Under the pieces are notes generated by a model. It did not search any database. It was not told the DNA's origin and saw only the letters and a program-made list of their open reading frames with translations. This document shows positions 15,001 through 55,228 of a DNA stretch of 64,000 nucleotides, in pieces (positions within the stretch are counted from its first letter, which is position 1; each line of letters starts with the position of its first letter). This stretch comes from Blastobasis lacticolella (taxonomy: Eukaryota; Arthropoda; Insecta; Lepidoptera; Blastobasidae). Where the stretch lies: NCBI GenBank assembly GCA_905147135.1, contig LR990061.1, forward strand, positions 8,098,026-8,162,025, written 5' to 3'. Position numbers and translations under genes: made by a program.

Positions 15001-18000
15001 ATATTACGAAAAAACTATAACTTTAATTATTTTTTTCTCAAAAACTACAAGTTTGCTTTGGTAGTGACTTTGCATAATTACTTATTAAGCATAGACCTTT
15101 TCACCAAAAAATTGCCATCTTCCAATTCGTGGACCATTATTGTACAGTACACCCGTGTTGTGTTCATCAGGACTATTCCAGGGAGCCCAAACTCGATGGT
15201 GTTTTTATGATGATGATTTTATTGCACACATATAAACACTGCAAGTTAATTAAAAGCTATTAAGTAAAAAAATTATAATATTTACCTTGCTTAGTTCAAA
15301 CATGTGGCGGTGGTGGTACTTTGGCGAAGAACGATCTAAAATAATGATTTGGACGAGGTAGGCAAGTACGCGCACTGAACACAAAGTGATTACAACCGGG
15401 TGCCTACGCACGCACGTGCACGAGAAAAAAAAACACTTATTGTAGTTGTTTTTCGCGTATTTTTCCATCCATGGGCTTGCTTTTGGATTTGGAATAATAA
15501 TAGTCACAATTTTCAACGGTATAGTTCGAATTTTGTTAGTCTAATCTGTTTCCGAGAACTACGAACAGGGTGTTGCAAAGACACATGCGTTGCGCGCGCG
15601 ACGAGCGATTCTAGACAGGCCGCCCGGCCCCAAGGGTGGCTACCCGCAGGCGCATGGTAGTTTCACACAAGCACTTCCGTTATACACACAAATATATATA
15701 AATTAGTTTATTTATTTGATTTATGTTTATTCTATAGTATCAAATTAATTATAAATTCATTTTATTGCTAAGAGAGTCCATTTACGCTGAATGCCCCCGA
15801 GAAATGACACTGGGAACCCTATAATTGTACCCGTGTTTTATATACCTTTTTTTTCATGTTAAATATAATTGTATTGCAAATAATAATGTCGTGGTGCCGT
15901 TTGTAATAAATTTTTCTTTCTTTCTTTCTTCCCGCTGGACCATTACTTCTTCTATATAAGGCTATTGCTCCCATCTATGGGCAGGAGCATTGGCATATCA
16001 GCTTGTTTCTTGTGACTCGATCCAAAAGCACGCTGTGCCAGCGGAGGGATTTCGCCTCCTTTCCTGTGTTCTACCGGTTGTACAACGGTGTTTGTTCCCA
16101 AGAACTTTTGGACATGCCTACAGCTACTTCTATCATCGCACCGCTCGTCACTGACAGTTCATCCTCGCACTATGGAGCCAAATTGGTCGCGATCTGTGCG
16201 GTTCTAAAGGAATTTTCTCCCACGTACACTAAGGTCTGGAGAGGTTTTCCCTGGAGAGTACAACATGAAGTTCTTCAAGAAAGGGGTGAAAAGGTTTTCA
16301 AGAATTTGGCAACACGTGGGTGACGAACTTGGTATTGCAAACGTCCATAGGCTGCGATGACTGCATACAATCAGGCAGGCCGTAAGCTTGTTTGCCACCT
16401 TGGTGGTATAAACAAAAACATTCTTCGCAGGTATACCTAACGAGGGCCGTGAGTGCCGATGTGAAGTACGACGCATGGATATGTGGCGGCGTGCTGGTAA
16501 GCAAGAACATGGTCGTCACCTCAGCGGCCTGTGTCGAAGACGTCCAATTCATGTACGCGATCGCTGGCTACAGTAAATATGTTAGATTCGACGAAATCGA
16601 GAACAACGAGTGCACCAGGGGGATCAAAAAGAAAATTGTGCAGACTTGCGTTCCTAAAAGTAAGAGCCCTAATTTTTTTTCGATAGGTTAAATAAATAAA
16701 TATGCTTGGACAAATCACACAGCGCCATTTAGCCCTAAAGTAAGCAAAGCTTGTGTTATGGGTGCCAGAAAACTGATAAACTACTTATACTTATTTTTTA
16801 AATACATACTTGTTATACATACAACTCCCAGACATGTAACATAAATTAAAATTCATCATTTCATTTTCTGCCCGGCTGGGAATCGAACCCAGGACCTCTG
16901 CGTGACAGACCGACATGCTAACCAAGTGAACCACTCAGGTCGTCAAGGTTATCTTAGCTAAGCTCTTTATTAATGGGAATTGGGCGCACCAGTCTTAATC
17001 TTAAATACCTAAAGCCAAGTATGTAAGTATCTATTCATAGAAAAGGAGCTAGCTACCTTAACTTTATTAATACGTCGTACTAACCTTACGTGGGTAGGCC
17101 TTCGCACAAGATGGACAGACGATCTGGTAAATATTGCAGATACCAGCTGGATGCGAATGCACAGGACCGGTCTTTGTGGAGATCTATGGGAGAGGCCTAT
17201 GCCCAGCAGTGAGGGTTTTCCGCTGCTATAATGATGATGATGATGACTATCCTTACACAACTTTCAGTTTACCACTTCGAATACCATAAGCTAGAAAAAT
17301 GGTCCAAACTGGATATAGCAATGGCTGTTTTGGAGAACGAGTACGATTTTAATGGTCCAGTCTCCCCTGGCTGCGAATATACACCCGACGAAATCCGCAT
17401 CAACTTCGATAGTCACTACCAGAAGCCGGGGACCAGCGGCTACGTCCTGGGTTGGGGTCACAAGGAGAAATGGAGACAGGTTAATTCATTAAGTCCAAAA
17501 CCCGGTAGTTCCAGAAATTGTCATTATTTCAATTTGAAATATTCGAAAATCGAGCCTATCTCAGGGCCGGTGTTGAGGGTAGCTAGGCTTGCAAAAATTT
17601 TTCAAAAAGAGTAGGTATAGGGTAAAAGCCGGATACTTGCCCCAGTGGGATAGTTGCCCCATTTTTGAATACACTATGTTAGGGATTTTGGTGGAGTTAG
17701 CCCTATACCACAATTGAAAGTGCTCCTCCCTAAGGCCTTAGTGCCATTTAATCCATCAGCGTAGGCGCACGCGTTTTGTCCTTGGAACAAAAATCTTCCG
17801 CGCTGAAGCTTTGACGGGCGTCAAAATTATTTTGGTAAGTAATTAATATTGATTATCTTTATTACTGATTATGGTATCAGTCTACTTTTTATTTATACAC
17901 ATTCATTAGGGTTGAAATTACATTGTATAATATGTTTTATTGTTTAATAAGTCTTATTTATTTAACAAATAAAAAGGGCAACTATCCGTATCAAAGGATA

Positions 18001-21000
18001 GTTGCCCCATTTACTTTGGCTGATAGTTGCCCCTTATTTAACAATAGCTGACTTTTTTTCTTTTGATATTTTTCCAACTTATTGGAACTTCTTGCTTTAT
18101 AAAATAAATATGTATTTGTCTGTGCTTTTATTCTATGTGAACCAAATGCCTCACAGGTACAAGCAAAAATCGGACGTGATGCCGCGCCACATTAGCTAGA
18201 CAGACAATAGTTGTCGATAAAGGGGGGGGGGGGACTAAAATTCAACATCCTCAGTCTGGCTCCACCGACTGCGAGACTGCCTTCTGGGATGGTCTCGAAG
18301 AAACGCAGCAACGCGGCGTATGCTATCTTCTGAACAGATCGTGGTTGGTGTGGATCTCCTGCCATGGTTTAGATGAGACCCAAGACCGGATAACTTTAAT
18401 ATAATGATGAGCAATTTACGTGCTAGATAAATCTTAAATTTTATTTACAATTTTTACTTCATAGTGTTAATAACTGGCAATTTTGTTTAAGTTGATCTTT
18501 CACTAAGTTTCTGCTGTTATGGACTGTATGATGGAATCATTGTAACAAAGCTTCTAGAGAACTTTATCTAGTGACTTGGTGTTTATTAGTTAAGAGCATT
18601 TTAAAAATTAATATACAATTCCATTAGGTACCATTGATTACCTATACAGTTTGCAGCTTAAAGTAAACCTTTCTGCAAATTGTGGGATAAGAATAATAAT
18701 TACATCTAGAATAAAGTTATAAAATAGAGAAGAAAAAGCAGTAAAGCGGATCCGGCCTGACAGACGCGGAATGGTGATGATTTTATAATTTAAATAATTA
18801 AAACTTAATACTACGTTTTTACAAAATTATTAATATTTTGATTAGTGCATAATACAGGATCTCAGTAAATAATAAACATTGTTTATATTGCACAAAATAA
18901 TAGTGAGGCGTCTATCCCCGCACGAGGCAACTATCCCCCGAAGCATTATTACCGTGGGGCAACTATCCGCCACAGTAGGCGACTTTCCCCCTTTTGAGAG
19001 GTCAAGTAAAACAGAATTTACTCAAAACTCGCTATTATAGAAGATTAAAGACATATGTTTTGATTTACATGTTGCATATTTCTTAGTAAGTACATATTTC
19101 TTCATGATAGAGCTTTTTCGAAAAGTGAGGCAAGTATCCGGCTTTTGATAGGGTAAAAGCCGGATACTTGCCTCACTTTTCGACTTTTCTGTTTCGGGTG
19201 TTTCCATTTAGGGTGTCAAAAAGTTGTACCTACCTATCCATATAAAAACTATAGTATAATTTATTTATTTATTTTAAGCGGGTTTATTACTTGTCGAATA
19301 GGTTGGTGCTATTCTTCCGGACAACATATGCTTGCACCATATGAATGCTTTAAAAATTACGTTACGTAGGTAGGTAAGATAAAGAAAAAGTGTAAGTTTA
19401 GATCAAATGGCTCTTATTATACACGAAGAAAGTATTGCCGCTGTATTGCTAAAATGATTTGGCTACTAAATATTTTCCAACAGTACATATACCTAGTAGG
19501 TATCTTGACAGTAGGATACTCGTCGTCGTCCTAGCGCTTATCCCGGCCTCTGCCAGGGTCCGATCTTCTCCTCTTCGCCCGGTCCTCGGCATCCTCGCGT
19601 CGTAAGCCGTTGGCTCTCGCAAATGACTCAGCGATGTCAATCCATCGCTTCTTGGGCCGCCCACGGGGCCTCTTTCCTGATACCGGCAGATTCAGGCACC
19701 TATTTCCCACATATCCCTGAGGCTTACGCAACACATGACCAAACCAGCGCAGACGAGCCTCCTCGATTCCTTCTGCGATACCTATGCCTCACGCCAAGGC
19801 TACCACGGATGTACTCGTTACGTACTCGATCGAGTTTCGTAACTCCGCACATCCACCGCAGCATTTACATTTCGTTGGCGTGGAGTTCGCGAACGTGTTT
19901 CGTCAGCATTGGCCAAGTCTCGCAGCCATAGAGCATTACCGGTCTTATTATACTCTTGTATATAAGCCCTTTGAGCTTTAAAGTTGTTTTAGGGCCACAG
20001 GTGACTACCGTGAGTTCCTGCCACTTGGCCCAAGCTGCAGAGATTCAAGACTTGACATCGGGGCCGATATCGCCGGACTCGTGCATCACGGATCCGAGGT
20101 ACTTGGATTTATCTGTTCTATTGACAGCTTCGTTACCTACAAGGATGGTTTCCGGATCTACGCTGCAGCTGGCCATATACTTTGTTTTGGCGACATTCAA
20201 CGTCAAACCACCGTTTTCTAGCATATCCTTCCACGTGTTTACTCTGGTCTCAAGATCCTGCCTAAGCTTGCTCACCAGTACAATGTTGTCAGCGTACTTC
20301 ATAAACCAAGGAGGCATGTCCTGAATTTCCGCTAAGAGGGCATCGAGCACAATGCAAAACAAGTAAGGGCTCAGCACCCTGGTGAACACCTACCGTAATC
20401 GGGAAGGGATCAGTATGGCCTACGATGGTTTTGACGACGGCTCAAGTATTGGCATACATATCTTGACAGTAGGATACTATACCACCTATATTACTCAATT
20501 TTCATTTTCGACATGAAATATTGAATAATGCATGACCCTATTCTTTCTATTTTTGAACCGTTCGCTTTTGATTTGCAAAAGTAATTAAAAATAATAATTA
20601 TAAAAAGTAAAAATCGTTCAACTCGAGGCGAGCGGTTCAAAAGCAGTATCCCTGAGTCCTAAGTTGTTGGTTTAATACATCTCAGCCAGGTATACCATAA
20701 TCTTAGCCTTTACCTTAGTGAGTGTAATTCCTAGTAAACCAAATCAGGTTTTTTATACTACTCAGTGACAAACGAGCAAACATAGTAATTAGGTTTCATG
20801 CTTACATGTAACAAAAATCTACACTGCAGGTAAGTTGTCATTGTGAGGACTAAGATGATATTATATCGGTGCTGAGTGCTGGCTACTATATTCTTCACAC
20901 AGGAACACAATGACAATCTTGTTACTTGCAGAACTAGATAAGATTGTTGACACCATCCAGGCGGTCTTTTCAGGCTTGACAAAATGTCCTACCACCGATA

Positions 21001-24000
21001 AAGTTCTTATTAAGTTTCTTACTTTTTAAGTTTATCTTCAAAGGAAAGGTTTATCTAAGACTTCGTTAGAATTACTTACTAACTTTCGTTTATTTTTCAA
21101 GCGAGATGATGACACAGACTTAAACGTTGAAACATTGAAGTACGCTCCACTAAAGATTGTTGATAATTCTGTCTGCAAGAATGCTTATTCTGATATAGTA
21201 CCGAAGTCATACCCCAATATAATTGACAAGTACATGTTTTGCGGAATGAACAAAGGTGACATGGACGACCTAGGGGAAGTTGTGACCAAAGCTAATGACC
21301 CCCAGTACCCGTATACCTTGGTAGACCATTGCAAATATGGCCCATTTAAGCCAGAGGTCAGTACCAGCTTTCTTTAATCGCCACACTTTCTTACTACCTT
21401 TTATAATCATCTTGGCATTAATTTGGGCCTCTAGTCCCTGTAATTTTTTTATTATTGCATCGCAATGTCAGTTTGAAACGTTTTTGTTAAACGAACGAAG
21501 TACATTAGTGGACTCGTGGCCCTGGTTGTGCTCCCACGCCTGAGGTCTGCCTTGACCATGATCCAGAATTTCGCAGATCAGGCAATTACAGTGGAGCGAC
21601 TGGCTTCTGACCTCCGTGATTGTGTTAACAAGGGAACAAATTGGATCGTAGCTACACATTCAGTTGAACAGTATCGCCGCCTCCGAGTTTGTAAGATATT
21701 TCACTCATTCTGTTCCCACGTTATGCAAGGGAAGTAAAACCGTTCACCCCCACTGAGCCCCGCATGTGGAGGTAAGATCATCATTATTGGCCTTAAACAT
21801 CTATTGTAGATGATAACAGCGTTATCGTTAGGGGTTTGTATACGGCACTTTCTCTGATGGCTGTAGAGCCCTACACGGGAAAAACAGATTCGGTTAACAG
21901 TCGGTTCGGTTCCCCATCTTACTTCATAGTTTCTCCCGCAGCGCTTTTCTTTTCTCTTGTCTTGTGAAAATATTTTTCCCAGCTTTATTGAGAACACTAC
22001 TGATCTGACCAGTGAATGTTTTTCTGAGTTTCTTGAGTTCCAAATTCGCGCTATACCTATACCTCTTTCGTCAATCTTCTTTCATCCATTCGCTCCACAT
22101 GCCTGAACCATCTCAACATCTCTTCCTCAACATACTACATATATAACTACTGTTTAGCTAACATTTTCTCGTATAAATTCTCTGTAAACATTTCAGTGCC
22201 GAGAAGGTAGGGGTGGAGGAGGAGGAATGCCGATGCCTACCGACGCAGCCAAATTCGCCAGTTACCATAAAGATCTTACTCGAAAGCAAAACGAAAATCG
22301 TACATTTATATCGAGAAGATATCCAGGAATATGTCAGGTATATTTATTTATAACTTTGTCGAGTTATGGTAATTCTTAACGAAAGTCATTATTCATGACG
22401 AATGGAGTAGTTCAGTAAATAACATACGCAGAGGTCCCGAATTCAATTATCGGCCGGGCAGAAATTGTAATGAAGAATTTTAATTTCTGTAACGGGTCTG
22501 GGTGGCATTTGTGTAATAAGAATGTATTTAAAAGTATAAACGTTGTTTATCAGTTATCTAACCCATAACACAAGTTTTGTTTACTTGGGTGCTAGATGGC
22601 GCTTATTTATATTATTTTTATTTTTTTTGTTACAGAATGACCACGGAGGTCCCTTCGTAAGCTGGATAGGTGGGCGCGAACATTTAATAGGCGTTGCATC
22701 AGTATTCAAGATAGATGACAATTCTGATTGTGAAGGTCCTTTCCTTTTCACGAGCACATACTGTAATTCACAATTTCTGCACTGCCTCTTGACCCAAAAC
22801 AAACGACAGACACGAAGACAATTCGACGAGGCGGTAATGAGTGGAAATGTAACAAAACATTACGTAGAATTAAATAGAGTCACCTATATTTATAATGGTA
22901 CTGATCAAAGTACGCCGCAAGTAATTAAGGAAACTGAAATAGTGCCATTGAAAGATACTCCCGAACAAAGTGAACTTGACTTAATGGATTGGAATGTGAA
23001 AGATATCTTTAAAAGTAAAGAAAATGACAAACAGTCTGAAATATACGGTGTTAATAACACTCTACCAGTACCCACGCAAAACAGTACAATAAACAATTTA
23101 AACGAATCTAGCACTGAACCAATAAGTTATAATGTGACTGGTAACTTCAGCCTCGACAATAGTAAAAATAATGATCAACAATATTCAACTCCATCAACTG
23201 AAAATTTTAATAACAAGGTTCTGTAAGTTTGCATTTATTCCTTTACAGCAGGACTTCCCCAACCACAGGACACGGCCCTTGTGGGCGTATAATAAGAGCT
23301 GTCCAATGCCGTAAAATAAGGGCTTATTGGGGGGGGGAGTATTTCTCTGGGCCCCTTCAACAACAACAACAACAACTAAACTAGCAATGCTTGCATTGTT
23401 GTGGTACGGTTTGAAAGATAAGATAAAGTAGCCAGCGCAGTTACAAGCATGAGGCATTTCATCTCAGTTTTGGCAGTGACAACGCACCTGCGGTTTTGCA
23501 TTTCTGTTACCTGCAACCTAAACCTAAATTATGATAGTCCTGCAAACCTTCTCTATGCGCAAATTCCTAATAGTTTGAGCTCTTTATTAATGTTTTCGTA
23601 CTTTGATTTAACCAGCCAAAGTTGTAATAATTATATTGTTTAATTGACTTTTTTAATCCTCATGAAAAATTAGTATTATTAATATTAATATATATTCTTT
23701 ATTCAGGAATGATATGTACAAAACAGTGTTACATTGGGTTCACTTAGTATAGGTTGATAAACATATTTGTACAAATTAGTTTTTAAACCCTGAGATCCAA
23801 ACAAGGCAATAGCCTGTATCTTGGAAGTCAAGTGTTCTGCCGTGGAAGCTATAAAATGAGTAGAATTTTAACAACCACATATACTTCATGACCTATATCA
23901 CAAATAGGAGGAGTAAGGGTGTGTATGTGTGTACACACACACATACACGTGTGTGGTTGGGTGAGTGAGTGTTAATGTGTATAACAACGTTCTCCTTCGG

Positions 24001-31460: not shown

Positions 31461-31597
31461 TTAGCTTATAATATTAACCATGTTAATTTATTGATTTCTC
31501 CTACCGTAGGTAGATATGACCAGAGTGCCGATTTGTTAATAAACAAAAAGGGTCACTGTTCAAACTAGTATGTAAGACAAAGGAGCCGTCCTGTATC

Positions 31598-32086
31598 ATG
31601 TCAGCAGACTTGAATAGTAAATCCTTTGATATTGGTCAGAATATACAGGACTGCTCTGGCATAAAGTCATCAGTAAATAGTGATAATAAGCCTTTGGATG
31701 TACGTAAAGTAAAATGTTATAAAAATAAACAAAATTGTATAGTTAACTTAGTACATCAAAATATCCAAGGCATGACGAATAAAGAATTGGAAGTTGAGCT
31801 ATTCATGGACGGTGAGAATGTTGATATTTTTTGCATTACTGAACATTGGTTAAAAGATCACCAGCTCATATTTGGCTTTAACAAACATAAACTTGCAAGT
31901 TTGTTCACTAGAAGGCAAGCAATTCATGGGGGTTCCCTAATACTTGTTCGTAATTGCGTTAAATGTAAGGAATGTACTGATATTGTCAAGCTTTCTCTCG
32001 AACGAACTGCTAAAATTGTCTGTATAGAACTTGAGCGACTTATTGTAATGAGCGTGCGTATACAGACCACCAGCTTCATCATTTGA
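31598..32086 (+). pseudogene. LINE APE endonuclease N-terminal part
   Basis: It reads LVHQNIQGMTNKELEVELFM, then DIFCITEHWLKDHQL with the catalytic Glu, GGSLILVRN and an IVCIELERLIVMSVRI strand. A frameshift near 32060 moves the remainder to the next frame. Confidence 0.75.
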
Positions 32087-44169: not shown

Positions 44170-45965
44170 GATTTCCATCCTCGTTTTCCCCAATTCCTGA
44201 ATTGTGCCGCTATCGTAATTTCCATTTGCATTTTTCTTAATTGAAGTATTTTTACTTCTCTATAAATTTTCGCAGATTACCCCAGTTGAAATTACCGGGA
44301 GGACTTAAACCTGTACATGGACCTCGAATTTATTTTGGTCCGTGCGCCGTGTTATTGAACTGTTCGAATTGAATTAGTATGCGATTTAGCTACCTGTTTC
44401 TTTCAACCTTGTTGTAAATTACAACGAGTGTGAAATAGATAAGTAGCTAATTCGCATACGAATCTAGTCCTAACGGTAAAAAATGCGGGTCTTGGTCCTT
44501 GTTTTGGTCCTGGTCCTTGTTCTGGACTTGGTCCTTGTTCAGGTCCTGTTCCTTGATCTTGTCCTTGCACCGTATATTTGAACCTTTCGAATTGAACTCG
44601 TGGACGAATTAGCTACCTGTCTCTTTCAAACTTGTAGTAAATTGCAACGAGTATGAAAGAGATAGGTAGCAAATTCGCATACGAATCTAGACAGTAAGGT
44701 TTAAAAATGCGGCTCCTGGATCTGCGCCTGGAGCTGGACCTGGACCTGGACTTTTTTCTGGTCCTGGTCCTTGATCTTGTCCTTGCGCCGCATATTTGAA
44801 CCGTTCGAATTGAATTTGTATGCAAATTAGCTACCTATATCTTTCACACTTATGACAAACTGCAACGAGTGTGAAAAACATAGGTAGCTACTGCGCATAC
44901 GACTGTAATCAGAACGGGTTAAAAATGCGGCTCCTGGATCTGCGCCTGGACCTGGACCTAGTCCTTGTTCTGGTCCTGGTCCTTGATTTTGTCCTTGCAC
45001 CGTATATTTGAACCTATCGAATTGAATTCGTATGCAAATTAGCTACCTGTCTCTTTCAAACTTGTGGAAAATTGCACTGAGTGTGAAAGAGATAGACAGC
45101 TAATTTGCATATGAATGTAATCAGAACGGTTCAAAAATGCGGCTCCTGGACCTGCGCCTGGACCTGGACCTAGTCCTTGTTCTGGTCCTGGTCCTTGATC
45201 TTTTCTTGCACCGTATATTTGAACCTTTCGAATTGAACTCGTGGACGAATTAGCTACCTGTCTCTTTCAAACTTGTAGTAAATTGCAACGAGTATGAAAG
45301 AGATAGGTAGCAAATTCGCATACGAATCTAGACAGTAAGGTTTAAAAATGCGGCTCCTGGATCTGCGCCTGGAGCTGGACCTGGACCTGGACTTTTTTCT
45401 GGTCCTGGTCCTTGATCTTGTCCTTGCGCCGCATATTTGAACCGTTCGAATTGAATTTGTATGCAAATTAGCTACCTATATCTTTCACACTTATGACAAA
45501 CTGCAACGAGTGTGAAAAACATAGGTAGCTACTTCGCATACGACTGTAATCAGAACGGGTTAAAAATGCGGCTCCTGGATCTGCGCCTGGACCTAAACCT
45601 GGACTTTGTTCTTTTCCTGTCGCCGTATTTTTGAACTGTTTGAATTAAATTCGGATGCGAATTAGCTACCTATCTCTTACACACTTGTGGCTCCAATTGC
45701 GACGAGTGTGAAAAATATAGGTAGCTAATTCACATACGAATGTAATAAAAACGGTTCAAAAATACGACCTAGACCAGCGTCCTTATTCTGGTCCACGTTT
45801 CTGGTAATTACAACTGGGGAAATCTGCTGAAGAAAAATTTGTAGAGAATAGAAATTCATTGTTGTAAAAGTCATGAACGGGGAAAAATGCGATTGGAAAT
45901 TATGCTACTGGCAAAATTAAGAAATGCGGAAAAACTGGAATAGAAATTACGCTACTGGTAAAGCA
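44170..45965. mobile_element. Foldback-type element carrying a hairpin-repeat array
   Basis: The left flank (44170-44303, ending CCCCAGTTGAAATTACCGG) and right flank (45801-45965, starting CTGGTAATTACAACTGGGGA) are imperfect inverted repeats of about 130-160 bp; strings such as GCAGATTACCCCAGTTG and TATCGTAATTTCCATTTGCA have counterparts in reverse. Between them lies a tandem array. The structure resembles foldback transposons, whose inverted arms hold internal repeats. There is no transposase. Confidence 0.65.
44340..45800. repeat. Tandem array of about seven 195-225-bp hairpin units
   Basis: Each unit has an inner palindrome (arms like AATTAGCTACCTATCTCTTT and its reverse around a CAACGAGTGTGAAA loop side), then AAAAATGCGGCTCCTGGA and a run of GGTCCT/CTGGAC hexamers. 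Unit marks lie at 44480, 44705, 44923, 45136, 45346, 45566 and 45760. The segments 44613-44825 and 45254-45466 translate identically, so three units (641 bp) form a higher-order repeat. Confidence 0.9.
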
Positions 45966-46560: not shown

Positions 46561-48786
46561 TGATGACCTGCCAAAACATGAATTACCAAATTTGAAAACA
46601 AATAAATATTATATAGCTATGAATCACATAATATAGGTTGTTCCTAGATAATTCTGAAAGTTATTAATCTCGAATTTAATAAGTTAGCTGACCGAAAGAC
46701 GATGATTACCGTAATGATTACAGTGAATCAGCTTAAAACCACTTTTATCACGCTAAAACACTACTCGAGAACGTATATTCTTTTTCTGCTTTCATCCCAT
46801 GTCTCGCCTTGAGACGTATAGCGGATGGGATGACTGACGGCGGCATGGCGGCAACCGACGCTCTGAGGCTATTCATAATTTAAATAATTACACTTTAATA
46901 AACATGTGTTGACTGTATCCTATTTATTGCAGTTTATTTACAAATTATGAAGAAAGCACGTCTTTTTTAACATCTACTACAATATAAAAAATAACTCTTT
47001 ATCGTAATGCAGCTCGAACTTCAGTACCTCGCCGTCCTATACGTCGTCGCCCACGGCAGCAAGCAACGAGTGTAACATGTAAGATTGCAAATAACTTTAT
47101 TATAATTTTTAATAAAATTATGTCTAAGACATACGGTAATCAGTATAGTATTATTAAAGTCCTGCATAGTAGGTACCATCTAGTTAAATAACATGCAAAT
47201 AAGCGTCGCAAAACTAGTACGGCGCGGGCGCACCGGTGAACAACACTAGCCGTTCTCCCTAATACTGGTGTGCAAGAGGTCATCTATCTATACATAGTAC
47301 TAGTGGGCCCGGCGCAACTCCATTCGCGTGGCATCCTATCAACCTTACTCTACACTTACCCTACCCTACACCTACCCTACGCCTACCGTACGCCTACCCT
47401 ACACCTATCTTACGTCTACCATACATCTGCACCTACCACATGCGCTTATTACATTTGACTAAATTGAGTAACTAAATTCAGAAGCATCACTTATATTATG
47501 TTACGTGTCGCTCCGCTTTTCACAAGCCGTGATATGAAAATTGACCTTATGTAATGAGCAATACATTTCACTTTGTATTGCTCTCACGCTTTTTGCTTCT
47601 GAATTTAGTCAAATATAATCAGCGCATAACACCTACCCTATACCTACCCTACACCTATCCCACACCTACCCTACCCTTTTTTGTGCGGACAATTAGAAAA
47701 CAAACAAAAACAAGAATAAATTTCTGTTGGTTTTTGATACGTTGGGATATATTATTGCAATTTTCCTATATAGGAATATCTATTTATTTTGAAGATATTC
47801 TTAGGAAATATAAAATAGACCTAATTTCATGGGAAAAAAATCCAGTTTAATTTGCTCTCACGCTTTTTGCTTTTGAACTTTGTATTGTATTTAGTCAAAT
47901 GTAGTAATTGCATTAGTCTTAATATTTTATATTATAGTCATATTATTATTATTACAGATACCACAAGAAACAAATGAAAGAAGCCCAATAAAATTTTTCA
48001 AGACACATTAAAGTTGATCATTACTGTTTATTCTTATAGGCTTTAAGAATTTGGTTAATAACACTACACTTTCATCACACATATTATCGGGTTTGTTACC
48101 ACGGTCAGTATTGTTTTACGTCGAAATTTCGGCGCAGTTACATGCGTCATGGTCACGCTTATGGTGCCGCCTTATGAAGTCGGTCATAATATCTGTCCGC
48201 CCTCTTTCGGATTCAAACAGGGATGATTTTGATGTCGAATTATAAATTCCAAACCAAAAAAAATTTGTAAATAAAAAAAAATGGTTTTTTTAACTGTAAA
48301 ATTTTGTGTTAATCAGCACGCTCAAAACACTTAAAATGTGATGTTTTTTATGTTCTCTTCTTCAAGATATTTGCCTCTTAGTAAAATTTTTATCTTCCCA
48401 TTATTTAACAATTGGGGTTTTCCCTCGCCAGGATCAGACTTAGGTCAAATCTTATCTCTTTTGTCTCCAGTCAGTAGCTCAAAAATGATCTTTTGAATCG
48501 AACTATTTATAAGTTTTTGAGTCGTTTTCCTGCTATAGTTTTCTAAAGTCGGTATTACATTGGAGCTTAGTGCTCACGGAAATTATGACTAATGACTGAT
48601 AGTCCTTACCTAGAGTATTTGAACTCAAAATTATAATTCTTTCAACAGTGATCTCTCGTATGTGTATTGAATAAATTTTTGATATTGAGTGATGAAATAA
48701 TGAGCGGATTTGTATTTTTTACGTACAAATTTTCAGGCTTATAAAAGTTTTCACAGGTCCCACTTATCGATGTTAACAAAAAAAAA
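46561..48786. other. Unassigned region with short repeats
   Basis: No supported gene. It contains CCTAC-rich minisatellites (47345-47450 and 47625-47675). Strings with ATTTGACTAAAT and ATTTAGTCAAAT lie in opposite senses at 47452-47485, 47600-47620 and 47890-47905. A small ORF at 47554-47850 is AT-rich and unsupported. Confidence 0.4.
47340..47452. repeat. CCTAC-type minisatellite
   Basis: About nine units of 10-12 bp of the form CCTACACCTAC/CCTACGCCTAC. It is not the insect telomere repeat (TTAGG). A second short block of the same unit is at 47625-47675. Confidence 0.8.
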
Positions 48787-48855
48787 ATTATATTTAATTA
48801 TTTACGAAATTTAATTAATAGATTGAAGTTTGTAAGATCAAAGTCTATATACACT

Positions 48856-48892
48856 TTGATCTTAGCCATGAGGCCGAGAAGGCTTAATAAGT
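48856..48892 (-). pseudogene. U2 snRNA 5'-end-like fragment, copy 1
   Basis: The reverse complement reads GCCTTCTCGGCCTCATGGCT, then AAGATCAAAGTGTA, close to the 5' end of U2 snRNA (which has CGCUUCUCGGCCUUAUGGCU, then AAGAUCAAAGUGUA). Only the first 35 or so bases are present, followed by an inverted copy of GATCAAAGT. Confidence 0.65.
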
Positions 48893-49094
48893 CCTTCCCG
48901 CTTACTCCCGCAGTTGCCTAGGCTCCAAACCAAGTAATCAAAGATTGCAAGCATGAAAATCATTGAACTTGCAATCTTATTAGATGAACCTCATTCTCCG
49001 CCGTCCATCTTACGGCATTAAATAAATTATATTTAATTATTTACGAAATTTAATTAATAGATTGAAGTTTGTAAGATCAAAGTCTATATACACT

Positions 49095-49131
49095 TTGATC
49101 TTAGCCATGAGGCCGAGAAGGCTTAATAAGT
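49095..49131 (-). pseudogene. U2 snRNA 5'-end-like fragment, copy 2
   Basis: The same U2-like string as copy 1. It is fused to the end of the truncated ankyrin ORF and supplies its last residues and stop codon. Confidence 0.65.
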
Positions 49132-49433
49132 CCTTCCCACTTAACAAGGTCGTAGTTTTTACTAACAACAGCCTGATGAAGAACCGAATTGCCAGTTCGA
49201 TTCTTGGCGTTGATATTAGCGCCCAAACTCAAAAGTTTTTCCATCAGATCTATTGCAAGTTGCCCTGTATGAAGGTAGGCAACGATATGGACACATTCCT
49301 GTCCACTGCAGTTTCGTTCTTGCAGGAGAAACCTGTTTGAGGGCATTATAAACCGACTGACTCGTTCCAAAAATACAAGAGAGCCTTCGGTAACAATCTC
49401 ATGGAATACATTAGTGCCAGCTGATAAGGGCAT
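49101..49433 (-). pseudogene. Truncated bracovirus-like ankyrin (IkB-like) gene
   Basis: The 110-codon frame begins MPLSAGTNVFHEIVTEGSLV. It contains an ankyrin repeat (LMEKLLSLGANINAKNRTG, then NSVLHQAVVSKNYDLVKW) and then leaves ankyrin sequence; the last 11 residues come from the U2-like segment. The FHEI---G-L start and IkB-like repeats resemble viral ankyrins of bracoviruses, which in parasitised caterpillars bind and block NF-kB factors. The complete relative at 51864-52337 has 157 residues, so at least one repeat is missing here. It has its own TATA/initiator pair upstream, so a short protein may be made. Confidence 0.7.
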
Positions 49434-49519
49434 TTTTTTTTAAATATTTAAAATAGTTGCAGAATCCATTTTTTTAAGAAACATTACAGGAGTTAAGTTG
49501 TGACAGACGAAAATGGAGT

Positions 49520-49551
49520 ACTGAAAACTGGCACACAATTTTCCTTTTATA
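49520..49551 (-). promoter_or_regulatory. TATA box and initiator of the truncated ankyrin gene
   Basis: On the - strand TATAAAAG (49544-49551) is followed by TCAGT (49520-49524), a spacing of about 29 bp from the first T of TATA to the initiator A. Confidence 0.6.
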
Positions 49552-49898
49552 TGACCCATATCTGGGACTTAGATCGGTTTAACAATGAAAAGATTATAAT
49601 GTAGGTCATCTTTGGTCTATTTTTGCTCTAGAATGACAATACCATATGAGTATTCTTTTCATTTGATTGCTAGGCTGATAATTAGAAGAAAAAAAAAACA
49701 AAACGAGGGGTATGCGCGTCGTTTTATTTCGCGAAAATCACAGTGACAATTCCTTCAAAAGTTTTAATCAATTACGACATACATTCTAATAACGATTATA
49801 TATTGTTTCTGTGTAGAATATTGGCTCATAATTAGTACAAATGTGCACAATACATCAGTCAAGGGTCACAAAAGAGTTGTCTCACTTCAGAATACATG

Positions 49899-50120
49899 TC
49901 AAAATAGCCGCAAAAACTCATGAAGCACAGTATAAATAAATACATATTGTTCTACAGCGAAAACACTTGAGCGTCTTTGTTCTCGTATTTGTATCACAGT
50001 TTCGGGCACTGAAAGTTTCTCGGTCCTTGCTAATTGAGTTACACATGAGTTTATAGCACAAAACGTCCTACTTCTTCCAATCCCAGCACTGCAGTGAACA
50101 ATAACAGGTCCAGTGGGTGC
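49899..50120 (-). pseudogene. PTP C-terminal fragment (duplicate)
   Basis: The frame holds about 74 codons homologous to the C-terminal third of the PTP at 50317-51330. It includes VIVHCSAGIGRSRTFCAINS, a damaged signature where G-R-T-G has become G-R-S-R, then REQRRSSVFAVEQYVFIYTV, and stops early. Homology goes on to about 49850 past the stop. The 5' two thirds are deleted. Confidence 0.85.
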
Positions 50121-50131
50121 ATTTCATGGAA

Positions 50132-50297
50132 TTAAGTGGAATTAAGTGATAACTCATTCTTTATATCTATTGTAAGCCCCAAGTCCACATTATCAATGAC
50201 ATAACCATAAAATTTGTTTGTTTATAAAGACACTTTTCGCAGTAGATACGAATTTCTGAGAAACAGACTTGAGTTAAGATCATGTAAACTTTAATCA
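50132..50297. repeat. Direct repeat A of the PTP duplication
   Basis: About 160 bp (AAGTGATAACTCATTCTTTA to TTAAGATCATGTAAACTTTA) recurs at 51417-51575 with few differences. It includes the 3' end of the upstream gene on the - strand (a poly-A signal ATTAAA in reverse). Confidence 0.9.
50290..50295 (-). promoter_or_regulatory. Poly-A signal of the intact PTP gene
   Basis: ATTAAA on the - strand, about 22 bp after the stop codon. Confidence 0.5.
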
Positions 50298-50316
50298 AAA
50301 CAAACGTGTACATCAG

Positions 50317-51330
50317 TCAAGGCTCACAAAAGAGTTCCCTTATCATAGGATAAATTTCAAATAACTGCAATAAGTCATGCAGAACAGTGTAAATATATTT
50401 ATATTGTTCTTCAGTTAAAACACTTAAATGCCGCTGTTCGCGTATCTGCATTACAATTTTGGGTACTGAGACTTTTTTGGTTCTTGCTAGTTGATAGATA
50501 CAAGAATCTATAGCGCAAAAAGTTCCTGTTCTTCCGACCCCAGCACTACAGTGAACAATAATAGGTCCAGGTGCTGGCCCACTCACTGCTTTGTTCAAAG
50601 CGTTTTGATATTGCGTATTTATATCTCTAATAAAGTTTAAAAATGATTTACTGTTGGGAGGTGTTCCATGCTCTGGCCAATCTACGTACCGATAATGTAG
50701 TGTCACTCTCGTTTCATCGGTGGTAGAATTATAAACTTCAAATAGTGACCTAATGTATCCTGAATTGTCCTTGATCTCTAATAATGTTCTGATTGAAAAA
50801 TCATTGGTTTTAAAAATATCTTGTTTGTCACGAGAAGTAGCCCAGTATTGCGCACATTTTTCATTCCCATTATCCTGGAATCCTGTTAGCATGACAATAA
50901 TTGGAGAATTCTGCTCCCAGACCATCTGCCAAAATTGATTAACTGTTTTTTTCAGAGGTCCCTGAGTCGCCACAAACTTCTTGGGTCTTCCATAGTGATC
51001 AACATAATTAGCATGGATGTAATCAGTATTACCTTCTTTAGGCGTAATTGTCACCCGAGATTCGTCCCAGCAGGCGACGTCGAAGTAACGATTTTTGTCT
51101 TGATTTTCTGGCTTTGAAAAGTGCTCAAACGATCCAATGAGCGGCTGTGACGTGATGTAATTATGCTCCGACCCGACAACTTCTAAATAATTGGGTTGAT
51201 TTCTTCTGCTTCTAAATTCGTCCTCACTCACTGCAGCTACTTTTTGGTCATTTACTTCGATATTTAAGTACATTTTTAATTTTTTGACAATGCGACTGTA
51301 CGTAATGAGGTCCCGAAGAAGACTATACAA
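50317..51330 (-). CDS. Bracovirus-like protein tyrosine phosphatase, intact
   Basis: A single-exon PTP of 337 codons, the usual size for bracovirus PTPs. The KNRY motif (DKNRYFDVACWDESRV), YIHANYVD and KKFVATQGPLKKTVNQFWQM are present. The substrate loop is followed by VDWPEHGTPP (Trp218-Pro-Glu220, so the general acid Asp of WPD is Glu). The signature HCSAGVGRTG has Cys261 and Arg267. REQRHLSVLTEEQYKYIYTV supplies the Q-loop region. It probably acts as a cytoplasmic PTP on phosphotyrosine proteins, perhaps with slow turnover because of the WPE loop. The start is uncertain: Met20 (51273) fits a TATA/initiator at 51295-51328 as well as Met1. Neighbours are ankyrin genes, as in bracovirus genomes. 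It has no introns, unlike most insect PTPs. Confidence 0.85.
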   Translation of the reverse strand: MYSLLRDLITYSRIVKKLKMYLNIEVNDQKVAAVSEDEFRSRRNQPNYLEVVGSEHNYITSQPLIGSFEHFSKPENQDKNRYFDVACWDESRVTITPKEGNTDYIHANYVDHYGRPKKFVATQGPLKKTVNQFWQMVWEQNSPIIVMLTGFQDNGNEKCAQYWATSRDKQDIFKTNDFSIRTLLEIKDNSGYIRSLFEVYNSTTDETRVTLHYRYVDWPEHGTPPNSKSFLNFIRDINTQYQNALNKAVSGPAPGPIIVHCSAGVGRTGTFCAIDSCIYQLARTKKVSVPKIVMQIREQRHLSVLTEEQYKYIYTVLHDLLQLFEIYPMIRELFCEP

Positions 51331-51416
51331 GTATCTATCAACTGGCGCTTATATTAAATGACGAGTCAATGGATGACACTCCCGGGTCACGAACGTCTGC
51401 TGATAAGTCTATTACA

Positions 51417-51575
51417 TGGAATTAAGTGATAACTCATTCTTTATATCTATTGTAAGCCCCAAGTCCACATTATCAATGACATAACCATAAAATTTGTTTG
51501 TTTATAAAGACACTTTTCGCAGTAGATACGAATTTCTAAGTAACAGACTTGAGTTAAGATAATGTAAACTTTAAT
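51417..51575. repeat. Direct repeat B of the PTP duplication
   Basis: The counterpart of 50132-50297, 1285 bp or so away. Together they show that a unit of repeat plus PTP was duplicated in tandem. Confidence 0.9.
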
Positions 51576-51863
51576 TAAATTATACCTACATTCTAATGGC
51601 AATGATAATATTACTCTTAACTACAATATTGTAATAGTATAGACCAAACTAGTCGTAAGGGAACCTGTTGCTAATTTGTAATAAAATTACCTTGACTTAA
51701 AATTCACCCATTTAATAAAACACTTCAAACCTGCGGCTCATAAAATCAAATTATCCATAAAACTTATTACCTAATACTAATCAATACGATATAATTAATA
51801 GCTTCAAAATTATGTTTAAACACCCTAAAAATTACAATAAGCTGATGGACCTAAGCTTGTTCA
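51576..51863. other. Spacer between ankyrin and PTP genes
   Basis: AT-rich, with no ORF on the - strand. It holds the 3' flank of the ankyrin gene. Confidence 0.5.
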
Positions 51864-52337
51864 CTAAACACTCGGATTTTGTTTTTCTTTTTCACTCGAA
51901 AACATTTTCATCATTTTGTAATTATTGTTTTGTTCTGCCACTTCATACGCCGTTAGTCCACTGTTGTTTTTTATATTCATATCAGCACGCATTAAAACCA
52001 GCCAGTCGATGAGCACGTAGTCCTCTCGTTTTACTGCTATGTGCAAAACAGTGTCTCCTGTGCCATCTTGCGCGTCCAAATCCGCTCCCATGTCGAGTAG
52101 TTGAGCAATTATTCTTTCTGCTCGAGATTCTCTTAGGATCTTAGCGGCACTATGTAGACACGTGTCCCCGTCGTCATTCTTTATTTTCAGTATTGGCTCC
52201 AGTTCGTTTCGACGGGTCGCGTTCCAAATGCGATCCAAAATATGATCAAGGTCTGCTTCAGCAATCAAATGGAACATAGTATTATTTCTTTCAGACTTTA
52301 CTTGGCCAAAAATGTTGTTAAGTTTGCGCGAAGACAT
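51864..52337 (-). CDS. Bracovirus-like ankyrin (IkB-like) protein, intact
   Basis: One exon of 157 codons. The N-terminus (MSSRKLNNIFGQVKSERNNT) leads into MFHLIAEADLDHILDRIW, then three ankyrin repeats: NDDGDTCLHSAAK with LLDMGADLDAQ (about residues 53-93), DGTGDTVLHIAVKREDYVLI to MRADMNIK (94-126), and NNSGLTAYEVAEQNNNYKMM (127-146). There are no IkB phosphorylation or PEST regions, only the repeat block. That is the pattern of viral ankyrins thought to hold NF-kB/Rel factors permanently in the cytosol. It has a good TATA/initiator upstream and lies head-to-head with the PTP at 53255. Bracovirus origin is inferred from size, lack of introns and PTP neighbours. Confidence 0.8.
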   Translation of the reverse strand: MSSRKLNNIFGQVKSERNNTMFHLIAEADLDHILDRIWNATRRNELEPILKIKNDDGDTCLHSAAKILRESRAERIIAQLLDMGADLDAQDGTGDTVLHIAVKREDYVLIDWLVLMRADMNIKNNSGLTAYEVAEQNNNYKMMKMFSSEKEKQNPSV

Positions 52338-52376
52338 TTTTTAGAGAGCTTGGTTACTTCTTGACGTCCCGAATTT

Positions 52377-52412
52377 CAATGATACTACATCCTACTGGAA
52401 GACTCTTATATA
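52377..52412 (-). promoter_or_regulatory. TATA box and initiator of the ankyrin gene
   Basis: On the - strand TATATAAG (52405-52412) precedes TCATTG (52377-52382) by about 30 bp. The start codon is about 40 bp further on. Confidence 0.65.
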
Positions 52413-53160
52413 GCCAGCTGATATAATCAAATCTATAAATAAAAATAACTTCCATCGCCGGTTTTCCCGTAGGTTCAATGTCGTCGCGCTCGGAATTCAC
52501 GTGTCCTCCATATAGTTCGTTGCTAATCTAATTACTTCATATTGTTTACAAATCATGTGTGTACTTGTGTAAGCAAGTAAAAAGTTATACTTTTTTGGTG
52601 TAACTTGAAAAAGAATTTTTCTATGCATTCAAATAAATTTTAATTGAGTCAAATTATCAATTAATAAAACTAATAGATAAATATTAATGTTGTTTGTACA
52701 GCCGGGAACAAAGTTATGGTATAATTCATGATGCAATTCTTATTATATTGATCTTTTGATTACTTAAAGTTTACTCCATTATGGCGATTCACTTACTGTA
52801 TAGGAAGTATTACTTGAAAATTAATAGGGTAAAATAACAAAAAAAATATTTAATTTCATGTACTGAAACGTGATGCGTCATATCGACGCTTTAGTTATTT
52901 AAAGTCCATATACAGGATTTTTAATTATACCTAAATTTAACAATACCATTGTTAGGAACATTCAAAGAAAAAAAGTTCATGATAACATTATACTCGCTGA
53001 TAGGCTTGTTAATTAACCACAGGGGAATTTCGATTGTTAAAATTAATTTTTAATGATGATGAAATAAGTATTAAATTCAAAAGACTGGAACATCGTGCGT
53101 CATATTGGTTAGATTATCGATACTGGGAGGAAAAAGTTAATATTAATGCTGAAACAGGAC
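52413..53160. other. Divergent intergenic region, ankyrin to PTP
   Basis: AT-rich with no ORF. Two related strings, ACGTGATGCGTCATATCGA (about 52868) and ACATCGTGCGTCATATTGG (about 53089), lie 220 bp apart and could be regulatory repeats. Confidence 0.45.
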
Positions 53161-53196
53161 TATAAATATGCCACTCTGAGTACAAAAATTTTCAGT
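53161..53196 (+). promoter_or_regulatory. TATA box and TCAGT initiator of the second PTP
   Basis: TATAAATA (53161-53168) is 33 bp before the A of TCAGT (53192-53196), a textbook arthropod core promoter. The leader to the ATG at 53255 is about 60 bp. Confidence 0.75.
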
Positions 53197-53254
53197 TGAC
53201 ACTGATCTCTGGTTAAAACAAGGACTTTTATCCTACGAAAGTGAATTCTCAAAA

Positions 53255-54139
53255 ATGGGCGGAATTAGCACAAGACAACAGTCTGGAGCTAGTTACGATG
53301 AAGAAAGTATAATCAAGACCCTCGAACAACAGCATCGGAGATTATTAAACGAACGGGTTAATTACAGCTGCAAGATATCGATGCAGGCAGAAAATATTAT
53401 GAAAAATAGATACTGGTTCTTACCTTGTTTTGATTACAACAGGGTGATCCTACCAACAGAAAATGGAGAAAACAATTATATTAATGCCAATCATGTCAAC
53501 GGATACAAAACCCTGGACAAGTACTTGTGCTGTCAGGGCCCGCTTAAGTCAACAGCTGAAGATTTTTGGAAAATGGTGTTTGCTTATCAATCCAGAGTCA
53601 TTGTTATGCTGACAAAGACACAGGATAAAGGACGGGAAGCTTGTTACCAGTATTGGAGCCCGAAGAAAGGAAGGACAGTGTTCTTTGGCGACTTTACCAT
53701 TGAAACAAGGAAAATAAAGACCTTTCGTGACCATATAGTGACCAAGCTGCGGGTGACAGACGACAGTGGAGACTCATTGGACCTTACACACTTTGCCTAC
53801 ACTGACTGGTCTCATAAAAGCATGCCTCAGAGCCGATCAGACTTTTTCAACTTTGTCCTCAAAGCCAGAAAGGCTCAAGCATATGCGGAGTTGGACGGCA
53901 GGAGCTCTAACTTCCCTCCTATGGTGGTCCACTGTTCTGCTGCAACAAATCGCACGGGGGTCTTTTGCGCTCTAGACATCAGCATATCAAAATATGATGA
54001 GAGCGCGACGGTTGACCTAGAAACTGTAGTAAGGGATCTCCGCAAGAAGAGAAAAAACTGCTTATCTATACCTATGTACTATGCATTTTGTTATCTAACG
54101 ATTTTAGAATATGTTAAATTAGTTGCTAAGAAGACGTAG
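53255..54139 (+). CDS. Bracovirus-like PTP, probable pseudophosphatase
   Basis: A single-exon ORF of 294 codons. The start MGGISTRQ suits N-myristoylation (Gly2, Thr6). KNRYWFLPCFDYNRVIL, NNYINANHVNG and CQGPLKSTAEDFWKMVF are standard PTP motifs. The WPD loop reads DWSHKSMP (Trp185-Ser-His187) and has no acid. The signature is HCSAATNRTG: Cys227 and Arg233 are kept but the glycines that shape the P-loop are gone. The Q-loop region is poor too (KKRKNCLSIPMYY). Such PTPs in bracoviruses are thought to trap phosphotyrosine proteins. A conserved length and open frame suggest selection for binding. The poly-A signal AATAAA is at 54237. It is transcribed away from the ankyrin gene at 51864-52337. 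Confidence 0.85.
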   Translation: MGGISTRQQSGASYDEESIIKTLEQQHRRLLNERVNYSCKISMQAENIMKNRYWFLPCFDYNRVILPTENGENNYINANHVNGYKTLDKYLCCQGPLKSTAEDFWKMVFAYQSRVIVMLTKTQDKGREACYQYWSPKKGRTVFFGDFTIETRKIKTFRDHIVTKLRVTDDSGDSLDLTHFAYTDWSHKSMPQSRSDFFNFVLKARKAQAYAELDGRSSNFPPMVVHCSAATNRTGVFCALDISISKYDESATVDLETVVRDLRKKRKNCLSIPMYYAFCYLTILEYVKLVAKKT

Positions 54140-54236
54140 TGTTGATATTGTAATTTATTTTTAAGACTAGTCTCTTAGTATCAAAATTATTATTATAAGT
54201 GTTTTATACCTTAGATAAAAGTTATTTCATCAAAAT

Positions 54237-54242
54237 AATAAA
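54237..54242 (+). promoter_or_regulatory. Poly-A signal of the second PTP
   Basis: AATAAA about 98 bp after the stop, at the start of an A-rich run. Confidence 0.6.
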
Positions 54243-54249
54243 AAAAATT

Positions 54250-55228
54250 TATTATTGTCCTCTTTTACCCACTTTTTAATAGCAAACCTTGCAATTTAAA
54301 TTTAAAATAGTAGCTAGCGAATACAGAGTTTATAGTTCATTATAGTTAATCCCGCACTGCTGGTACAAAATGACTCACCCACAATACGTCGTTGTGACTT
54401 AATTAAGACTGGGTTTGAAAGCGCTATTGTATGAGTAATTGATTTTGGTTTCCCTGTAGTGACCATAAATCTATTTAATTGGGCGAAAGAAGTCCATGTT
54501 AGGCCATGAAGTAGTACCTATCCTTGAAACCTTGGAAATGTTATTGACACTTACTGAGTAAAACCTAGTTCATAGGTCAATGTTGACTGATAGTAACGTA
54601 GGCGCACTGGTGATCCAAATTTGTAGGTACCAACGATATTTGAAGTAAACAATTCTCGTTAACAATTATCTTTATTACTTCTTGGAAATGAAATGAACTA
54701 TCGCAATCTCATTACCGAAAGGTCAATCAATGATTGATTGGAGCTTATCGCTCCAAAATTCTCAGTAGTCATTAGTTGAAACGTTAATTATTTTATTAAC
54801 GGGTATATCGAGTTTATGTTTTCTTTACCTACTCTGTTGATGTTCTTTGAATACCGCCCCTTATACGAAGTATAATGGGCTCCATATGTTCACAATTTTA
54901 ATTCTAATCGTAAAAAGCTATACATTATCATTTTTATTCGCAAATTGTTTCACACTTATATCTAAATAATAAATAATTTATTCAAAAATTAAATTCGTTA
55001 TACATATACATTTATAGATGTATACATACATCAGTGCCAAATTTTAACTAAGTCACTATAGCTATCGAGTTTCGAGATCGATAACTTTCCTGTCAACGAT
55101 TGCCCTCACTATGAGTTCTCGAACCATTACCATTGTTACTCGCATCGTTTCCACTATTAAAATAATTGTATTTGGTTATTTCTATTGCCTGAGTGGCGAT
55201 CCGTCGACAGTACTTGGGGGTTATTAAT
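54250..55228. other. Spacer after the PTP gene
   Basis: AT-rich DNA without a supported gene or recognised repeat. Confidence 0.45.

Follow-up and report, generated by a model that had tools for sequence, protein, structure and literature searches.

A cluster of intronless protein tyrosine phosphatase (PTP) and ankyrin genes at 49.1-54.1 kb of a 64-kb stretch of moth DNA (the window) very probably represents bracovirus DNA that was endogenised in a lepidopteran germ line and then rearranged. Its genes are of a type carried by the domesticated viruses with which parasitic wasps inject caterpillars, and since they lie in moth DNA, such viral DNA has apparently passed into an insect germ line. 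PTP and ankyrin genes are two virulence families typical of bracoviruses, and the cluster would extend to them the set of wasp-virus genes seen in caterpillar genomes. Comparison with its relatives in the codling moth (Cydia pomonella) could date the transfer and serve as a test of domestication.

Gene content of the cluster

Five pieces make up the cluster, and none has an intron. On the minus strand are the 5' part of an ankyrin gene (49,101 to 49,433), a PTP fragment of 74 codons (49,902 to 50,123) whose open piece matches only the C-terminal part of the domain, with its P-loop, the complete gene PTP1 (50,317 to 51,273; 318 amino acids) and a vankyrin-like ankyrin gene (51,864 to 52,337; 157 amino acids). 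PTP2, on the plus strand (53,255 to 54,139), is complete and encodes a phosphatase-fold protein of 294 amino acids. Apart from the PTP fragment, all are open reading frames (ORFs) with Pfam matches: Y_phosphatase for PTP1 (E 2.8e-79) and PTP2 (E 1.1e-65), and ankyrin profiles for the ankyrin gene (E 4.5e-13) and the ankyrin fragment (E 1.1e-5). When the bases of positions 49,001 to 54,300 were shuffled 300 times, the longest ORF averaged 76 amino acids and reached at most 139, as against 318, 294 and 157 for the real frames. These data confirm the original prediction of five intronless PTP and ankyrin pieces within 5 kb. The classical PTP domain, by which bracovirus PTPs are assigned to their family, is present, and in PTP1 and PTP2 one uninterrupted frame spans all of it. 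Three of the five genes had been described as open, which holds for PTP1 and PTP2, but the frame of the ankyrin gene breaks near its 3' end, where the last 14 residues of its Cydia homologue P0121 match another frame (E 0.022).

Repeats lie beside some of these pieces. Two copies of a 169-nt repeat, 96% identical, lie upstream of the PTP fragment (50,131 to 50,299) and of PTP1 (51,411 to 51,579), and the fragment itself is 77% identical to PTP1 in nucleotides and 69% in protein over 70 codons. The ankyrin fragment, which shares 27% identity with the main ankyrin gene, is truncated by the second of two U2-snRNA-like 124-nt repeats (48,781 to 48,904 and 49,020 to 49,143; 98% identical), and its final codons lie inside that element. 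Both copies overlap matches to RF00004 below its gathering score of 46 (48,752 to 48,885 at 32.6 bits, and 48,991 to 49,124 at 34 bits); an Rfam search at the gathering threshold gave no match.

Seven further ORFs were compared with Pfam. Two have matches, three in total and all below the curated cut-off, including an ORF at 31,520 to 32,083 that resembles a toxin-domain profile (19.1 bits; cut-off 25) and, weakly, an endonuclease profile. We take these matches to be due to chance or to a retroelement.

Kinship of the PTP and ankyrin genes

PTP1 retains the P-loop HCSAGVGRTG and carries WPE as its WPD loop. In a protein search its best matches are from Cydia pomonella (70% identity over 64% of the query) and from Cotesia, bracovirus or nameless PTPs at 50-58%. 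A careful tree, among whose rows no PTP is named GfIV or AsIV, pairs PTP1 with the Cydia protein (100/96) and nests the pair in a bracovirus-type clade of 10 rows (100/99), several of them without a source name; the wider bracovirus-type clade has 26 rows (89/98). A quick tree of 121 rows agrees on this placement. PTP1 is thus of bracovirus type, as predicted, and, within the set of sequences compared, belongs to no ordinary family of PTPs, so that both trees reject an ordinary host gene as its identity. The search with PTP1 also detected bracovirus-type PTPs on 6.0 Mb and 22.8 Mb contigs of Colias eurytheme and Euphydryas editha, which in the careful tree group with bracovirus PTPs of Cotesia glomerata and Cotesia vestalis; judged by these sequences, PTP transfers from bracoviruses to Lepidoptera therefore look recurrent. 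A tblastn search of phage records with PTP1 found no match, and three scans of viral_contigs gave 1, 14 and 13 pattern matches, none of which was confirmed.

PTP2 retains the CX5R motif, and its WPD loop reads WSH. Among viral structures it is matched best by a PTP of Microplitis mediator bracovirus (E 3.0e-38; 44% identity across 290 columns), with the second match at 31%. The Microplitis protein is absent from both trees, within which the best identity to PTP2 is a lower 36%. PTP2 forms a long branch: in the quick tree a starred branch (99) keeps it out of the bracovirus clade of 26 rows, and the careful tree, left free, groups it with the 25 other PTPs outside the bracovirus-type clade (89/98, not starred). 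Forcing PTP2 to join the bracovirus PTPs yields a tree that is not rejected (p-AU 0.551). The proposal that PTP2 is also of bracovirus type is therefore backed by its fold, which is nearest to a bracovirus PTP, but not by the trees, which do not place it there.

A sequence search with the 157-residue ankyrin protein, which requires shared 5-residue words, returned four matches. Three are Cydia pomonella proteins with 61-77% identity, the fourth is a nameless ankyrin-repeat protein at 38%, and none of the four is labelled as polydnaviral. Its fold (structure model pLDDT 71) was also compared with BFVD, where polydnavirus proteins occupy ranks 2 to 6, 8 and 9 and nameless proteins ranks 1 and 7; rank 2 is named vankyrin (E 3.9e-8) and rank 9 I-kappa-B like. 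The expectation of a polydnavirus-type ankyrin is upheld, in that its fold is closest to polydnavirus ankyrin proteins. Against the PDB, the 50 matches listed are mostly designed ankyrin proteins, and the polydnavirus likeness is therefore one seen in the viral library only.

In Cydia pomonella this ankyrin family is represented by three open reading frames. For the Cydia ankyrin P0121 and PTP P0007 alike, the longest contig listed measures 505,925 bp, and apparently the two lie on one contig.

Origin, fate and possible function

The events probably began with a braconid wasp that injected a piece of bracovirus DNA with PTP and ankyrin genes into a caterpillar, which survived. This piece would then have settled in the germ line of one lineage of Lepidoptera and been fixed there; of this, the data show the kinship of PTP1 and the lepidopteran nature of the flanks. 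The DNA was rearranged: a tandemly repeated PTP unit has lost the 5' part of one of its copies, either before or after the transfer, and one ankyrin gene now ends in a U2-like element. PTP1 and PTP2 are still open, and the main ankyrin gene is nearly so. The original prediction was of a resident bracovirus segment; bracovirus-type genes between lepidopteran flanks agree with it, but the term "segment" is unproven because no integration motif was found. An HIM-like 8+5 motif from Cotesia vestalis, with assumed order and spacing, has no match on either strand of the window, nor near the cluster when one mismatch is allowed; such motifs vary, and old borders erode. The AGCT core of the direct repeat junction (DRJ/WIM) of integrated circles is too short to be informative by itself. 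We counted this result against a bracovirus origin, together with the exclusion of PTP2 by the quick tree, the lack of a polydnavirus-labelled match in the ankyrin sequence search, and the ichnoviral names of the nearest named ankyrin folds.

Compatible with a bracovirus origin, and given about even odds by us, is the view that the cluster is a neutral, decaying relic, useless to the insect, whose open frames reflect a young insertion. Both fragments and the 3' end of the ankyrin gene are broken, and a neutral simulation with assumed substitution and indel settings leaves the frames of both PTP1 and PTP2 open in ~10% of its runs when divergence is 1% and in 1% when it is 2%. Against neutrality are the three open ankyrin frames in Cydia and a dN/dS of ~0.2 between PTP1 and the PTP fragment (NG86, 70 codons), although this value may be older than the insertion. 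Use of the genes by the moth is unproven, with two frames open and the remainder decaying. A lepidopteran lineage that includes the codling moth might keep the captured ankyrin and the catalytically altered PTPs as immune modulators or decoys of its own, which we consider possible but rather unlikely. If true, a wasp immunosuppression kit would have acquired a resident function, such as tolerance of or resistance to parasitoids or viruses.

Both PTP1 and PTP2 keep the catalytic cysteine and lack the usual aspartate (WPE and WSH), features fitting weak phosphatases or substrate traps. According to a passage in PMC3573978, an altered aspartate favours stable substrate complexes, but the PTPs that this passage treats as traps also lack the cysteine that PTP1 and PTP2 retain, and a change of D to E is mild, which we counted against trapping. 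If expressed, the proteins would most likely act inside cells. By analogy with their families, the PTPs would bind phosphotyrosine proteins with little or no catalysis, as substrate traps, and the ankyrin protein would, like IkB, bind Rel/NF-kB factors.

A banchine ichnovirus of the Glypta or Apophua type, as a carrier of both PTPs and viral ankyrins, is an improbable donor in place of a bracovirus. PMC7602663 tabulates GfIV and AsIV as viruses of Banchinae in which viral ankyrins and PTPs rank with the most abundant families, and the nearest named fold matches of our ankyrin are ichnoviral (HfIV 32%, AsIV 27-32%, GfV 30%). Microplitis demolitor bracovirus H1 reaches 30% as a fold match, and on the modelled fold the ankyrin is equally near both virus types and by itself cannot separate them. 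The PTPs argue against an ichnovirus: PTP1 falls in the Cotesia and bracovirus-type clade (in a tree without PTPs named GfIV or AsIV), and PTP2, for which we reject this donor, has 44% identity to the Microplitis mediator protein versus 23-26% to the three GfIV PTPs ranked highest and 24% to the AsIV PTP ranked highest.

Genes of wasp-virus type could also mean that the contig comes from a provirus in wasp DNA, or that the assembly joined moth and wasp sequence into a chimera. The host gene predicted at 9-25 kb is confirmed as a spliced gene, from which five coding exons were read by eye, with one donor site ambiguous. It encodes a serine protease with 19 matches, of which all 18 with names are lepidopteran. 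In a tree of this gene the window's sequence has a branch of 2.91 and no starred set, so that the tree does not place its species. In addition, 15 repeat pairs connect the left and right flanks across the cluster, so that lepidopteran DNA is recognised on the left by gene kinship and on the right by repeats common to the left. Relatives of the cluster occur on Cydia pomonella contigs of 505,925 bp, 23.7 Mb and 24.4 Mb. We therefore reject wasp DNA, which had been named as grounds for abandoning a bracovirus reading, and likewise a chimera; both are most improbable.

Cellular genes often have intronless copies and the trees do not place PTP2 with bracovirus PTPs, but retroposition of ordinary lepidopteran PTP and ankyrin genes is hardly credible given PTP1's position within bracovirus-type PTPs, the viral fold match of PTP2 exceeding its best identity in the trees, and a nameless protein as the single non-Cydia match of the ankyrin.

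Comparison with known systems

An endogenised bracovirus-type remnant is a known kind of event. Massive polydnavirus integrations were reportedly described by Heisserer and colleagues in 2023, and that work may already list PTP or ankyrin insertions. In the literature examined, we found no report of the PTP and ankyrin pair for moths. PMC4574769 describes bracovirus BEN in Danaus and Bombyx and, in Spodoptera, BV2-5 and C-type lectins; the main text of that paper mentions tyrosine phosphatase once and ankyrin not at all. Our cluster resembles these cases as rearranged bracovirus DNA in a lepidopteran genome with partly open frames, and differs in its families, PTP and ankyrin.

The ankyrin gene encodes a short protein of ankyrin repeats that resembles the vankyrins and IkB-like proteins of polydnaviruses in size, in fold and in the genes that accompany it. 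It differs in sequence, sharing 22-38% identity with those polydnavirus proteins that carry names among the fold matches listed, and its close relatives are confined to Cydia pomonella. Bracovirus PTPs are intronless in the account given in part of PMC3573978, whereas a section of PMC4169385 describes introns of 60-120 bp in some Microplitis demolitor bracovirus PTPs, so the absence of introns is not diagnostic. With the bracovirus PTPs of Cotesia, Glyptapanteles and Microplitis, the genes studied here share a single intronless domain of ~300 amino acids and a retained P-loop; some members of that family also have an altered WPD loop, and PTP1 nests within it. Unlike them, PTP1 shares a separate branch with its Cydia relative, PTP2 is highly divergent, and the genes reside in lepidopteran DNA.

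Composition and repeats of the cluster

Five PTP and ankyrin frames lie within ~5 kb of the window (49.1-54.1 kb), in agreement with the original prediction. On the minus strand are, in order, an ankyrin fragment (49101-49433), a PTP fragment (49902-50123), PTP1 (50317-51273) and an ankyrin gene (51864-52337); PTP2 (53255-54139) follows on the plus strand. Four are ORFs with clear domains, and the PTP fragment is short. Composition-matched shuffles yielded no ORF longer than 139 aa (300 trials). Three of the genes had been described as open; the PTP1 and PTP2 frames are, but the 3' end of the ankyrin gene is out of frame relative to its Cydia pomonella relative, P0121.

The PTP fragment and PTP1 belong to a tandem repeat (units 49851-50299 and 50309-51579) whose common 3' coding part is 77% identical, and the first unit lacks the 5' part of the PTP gene. 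Upstream of both copies is a 169-nt repeat (50131-50299 and 51411-51579) with 96% identity, compared with 77% in the adjoining coding sequence; gene conversion, later duplication or constraint are candidate readings. A 124-nt element, present in two copies that are 98% identical (48781-48904 and 49020-49143), resembles the 5' part of U2 snRNA at a score below the Rfam gathering threshold, and the end of the ankyrin fragment falls inside one copy. Only this element and the cluster's own duplications are repeats that touch the cluster. Judging from the ORF list, repeated PGPEQG-like frames at 44403-45475 (minus strand) form a tandem array, and 47335-47685 holds two blocks of a short tandem repeat with 11-nt units, rich in CCTACCCTA.

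Kinship of the PTP and ankyrin genes

A protein search with PTP1 gave 1757 matches, of which the best 120 were aligned. The quick tree has 121 rows (PTP1, PTP2 and 119 listed matches above a length filter, one of the 120 aligned rows being dropped), and the careful tree has PTP1, PTP2 and 50 of these matches, namely 25 from the quick tree's bracovirus-type clade, the three lepidopteran proteins included, and 25 others picked by hand. PTP1 pairs with the C. pomonella PTP P0007 in both (support 97 in the quick tree; 100/96 in the careful), and this pair is nested in a group of ten PTPs (99; 100/99), among them rows of Cotesia glomerata and of Cotesia vestalis bracovirus. The group is termed bracovirus-type from its named rows, several others carrying no name. 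The proposed bracovirus kinship therefore holds for PTP1. Two other bracovirus-type PTPs, P0092 of Colias eurytheme and P0060 of Euphydryas editha, adjoin C. glomerata and C. vestalis bracovirus rows in the careful tree and, by sequence kinship, are likely to represent further transfers. Both are annotated proteins, on contigs of 6.0 and 22.8 Mb.

PTP2 forms a long branch. A starred branch of the quick tree excludes it from the 26-row bracovirus clade, with the tool's caution that long rows may be wrongly excluded, and the free careful tree sets it with the 25 other PTPs (89/98, not starred). Constraining PTP2 to the bracovirus PTPs gave a log-likelihood 1.12 higher than the free tree (p-AU 0.551), so the trees leave it unplaced. 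The top viral match of its structure model (pLDDT 89) is a Microplitis mediator bracovirus PTP (44% identity, 290 columns). Of the four matches after it, two are unnamed (31% and 28%), one is a Glyptapanteles indiensis bracovirus PTP (31%) and one a Glypta fumiferanae ichnovirus protein (26%). The kinship predicted for PTP2 is thus favored by structure.

The 157-aa ankyrin protein has four matches: three C. pomonella proteins, with local identities of 77, 74 and 64%, and an unnamed ankyrin-repeat protein (38%). Because the longest contig listed for P0121 is 505,925 bp, as it is for P0007, we infer that they share one contig; for the other two Cydia ankyrin relatives the contigs measure 23.7 and 24.4 Mb. 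The ankyrin structure model (pLDDT 71, from four sequences; one of five models good) has polydnavirus proteins as its best viral fold matches. An unnamed entry ranks first (39% identity). Ichnovirus proteins, from Hyposoter fugitivus, Apophua simplicipes and Glypta fumiferanae, take ranks 2-6 and 8 (27-32%), and a Microplitis demolitor bracovirus protein named I-kappa-B like is at rank 9 (30%). Taken alone, the modeled ankyrin gene does not tell a bracovirus from an ichnovirus source.

Lepidopteran flanks

Five exons of the host gene at 9-25 kb were spliced by eye and the translation used as a query. The product is serine-protease-like, with 19 protein matches at E up to 0.001 (local identity 38-53%); all 18 named matches are lepidopteran, and none of the 19 is a Cydia protein. 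A tree of this gene leaves the window's species unplaced. This gene (~9332-23226) has a long C-terminal tail and is surrounded by retroelement-like ORFs. Fifteen repeat pairs link the left and right flanks of the cluster. GC content is 0.346 at 48.0-56.3 kb, below the values to the left (0.407, 1-47 kb) and to the right (0.394, 56.3-64 kb), a dip that lends weak support because GC is even lower at 31-33 kb and 39-40 kb.

The 8+5 host-integration motif of C. vestalis, as given in an excerpt of PMC8460044, has no exact match on either strand of the window (0.09 and 0.16 expected) and none with one mismatch at 46.0-58.5 kb (0.475 expected), the order and spacing of its parts being assumed.

Selection, predicted activity and known transfers

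In a neutral simulation with parameters that we set, both PTP frames stayed open in ~1% of cases at 2% divergence and ~0.01% at 4%; selection on these frames is therefore likely if the insertion is older than the simulated divergence allows. Between PTP1 and the PTP fragment, dN/dS is ~0.2 (NG86, 70 codons), which may reflect selection before transfer; with YN00, dN is 0.14 and dS, at 1.9, is saturated.

According to an excerpt of PMC3573978, bracovirus PTPs with replaced aspartate and cysteine are likely phosphoprotein traps, and phosphatase activity may persist where the cysteine motif is intact. CX5R is present in PTP1 and PTP2. At the WPD loop, PTP1 and P0007 have WPE and PTP2 has WSH. Unlike the trap-type PTPs, both retain the cysteine, and they might act as weak phosphatases or decoys. 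The ankyrin protein could be an IkB-like partner with Rel factors as targets.

That bracovirus DNA occurs in lepidopteran genomes, as the original prediction stated, is established in the excerpted text of PMC4574769, PMC4190172 and PMC5704228. The paper listings searched and the excerpts of these three papers contain no report of PTP or ankyrin transfer to Lepidoptera. The PTP and ankyrin cluster is therefore probably an added case of a kind of event already known, the transfer of bracovirus genes to Lepidoptera.
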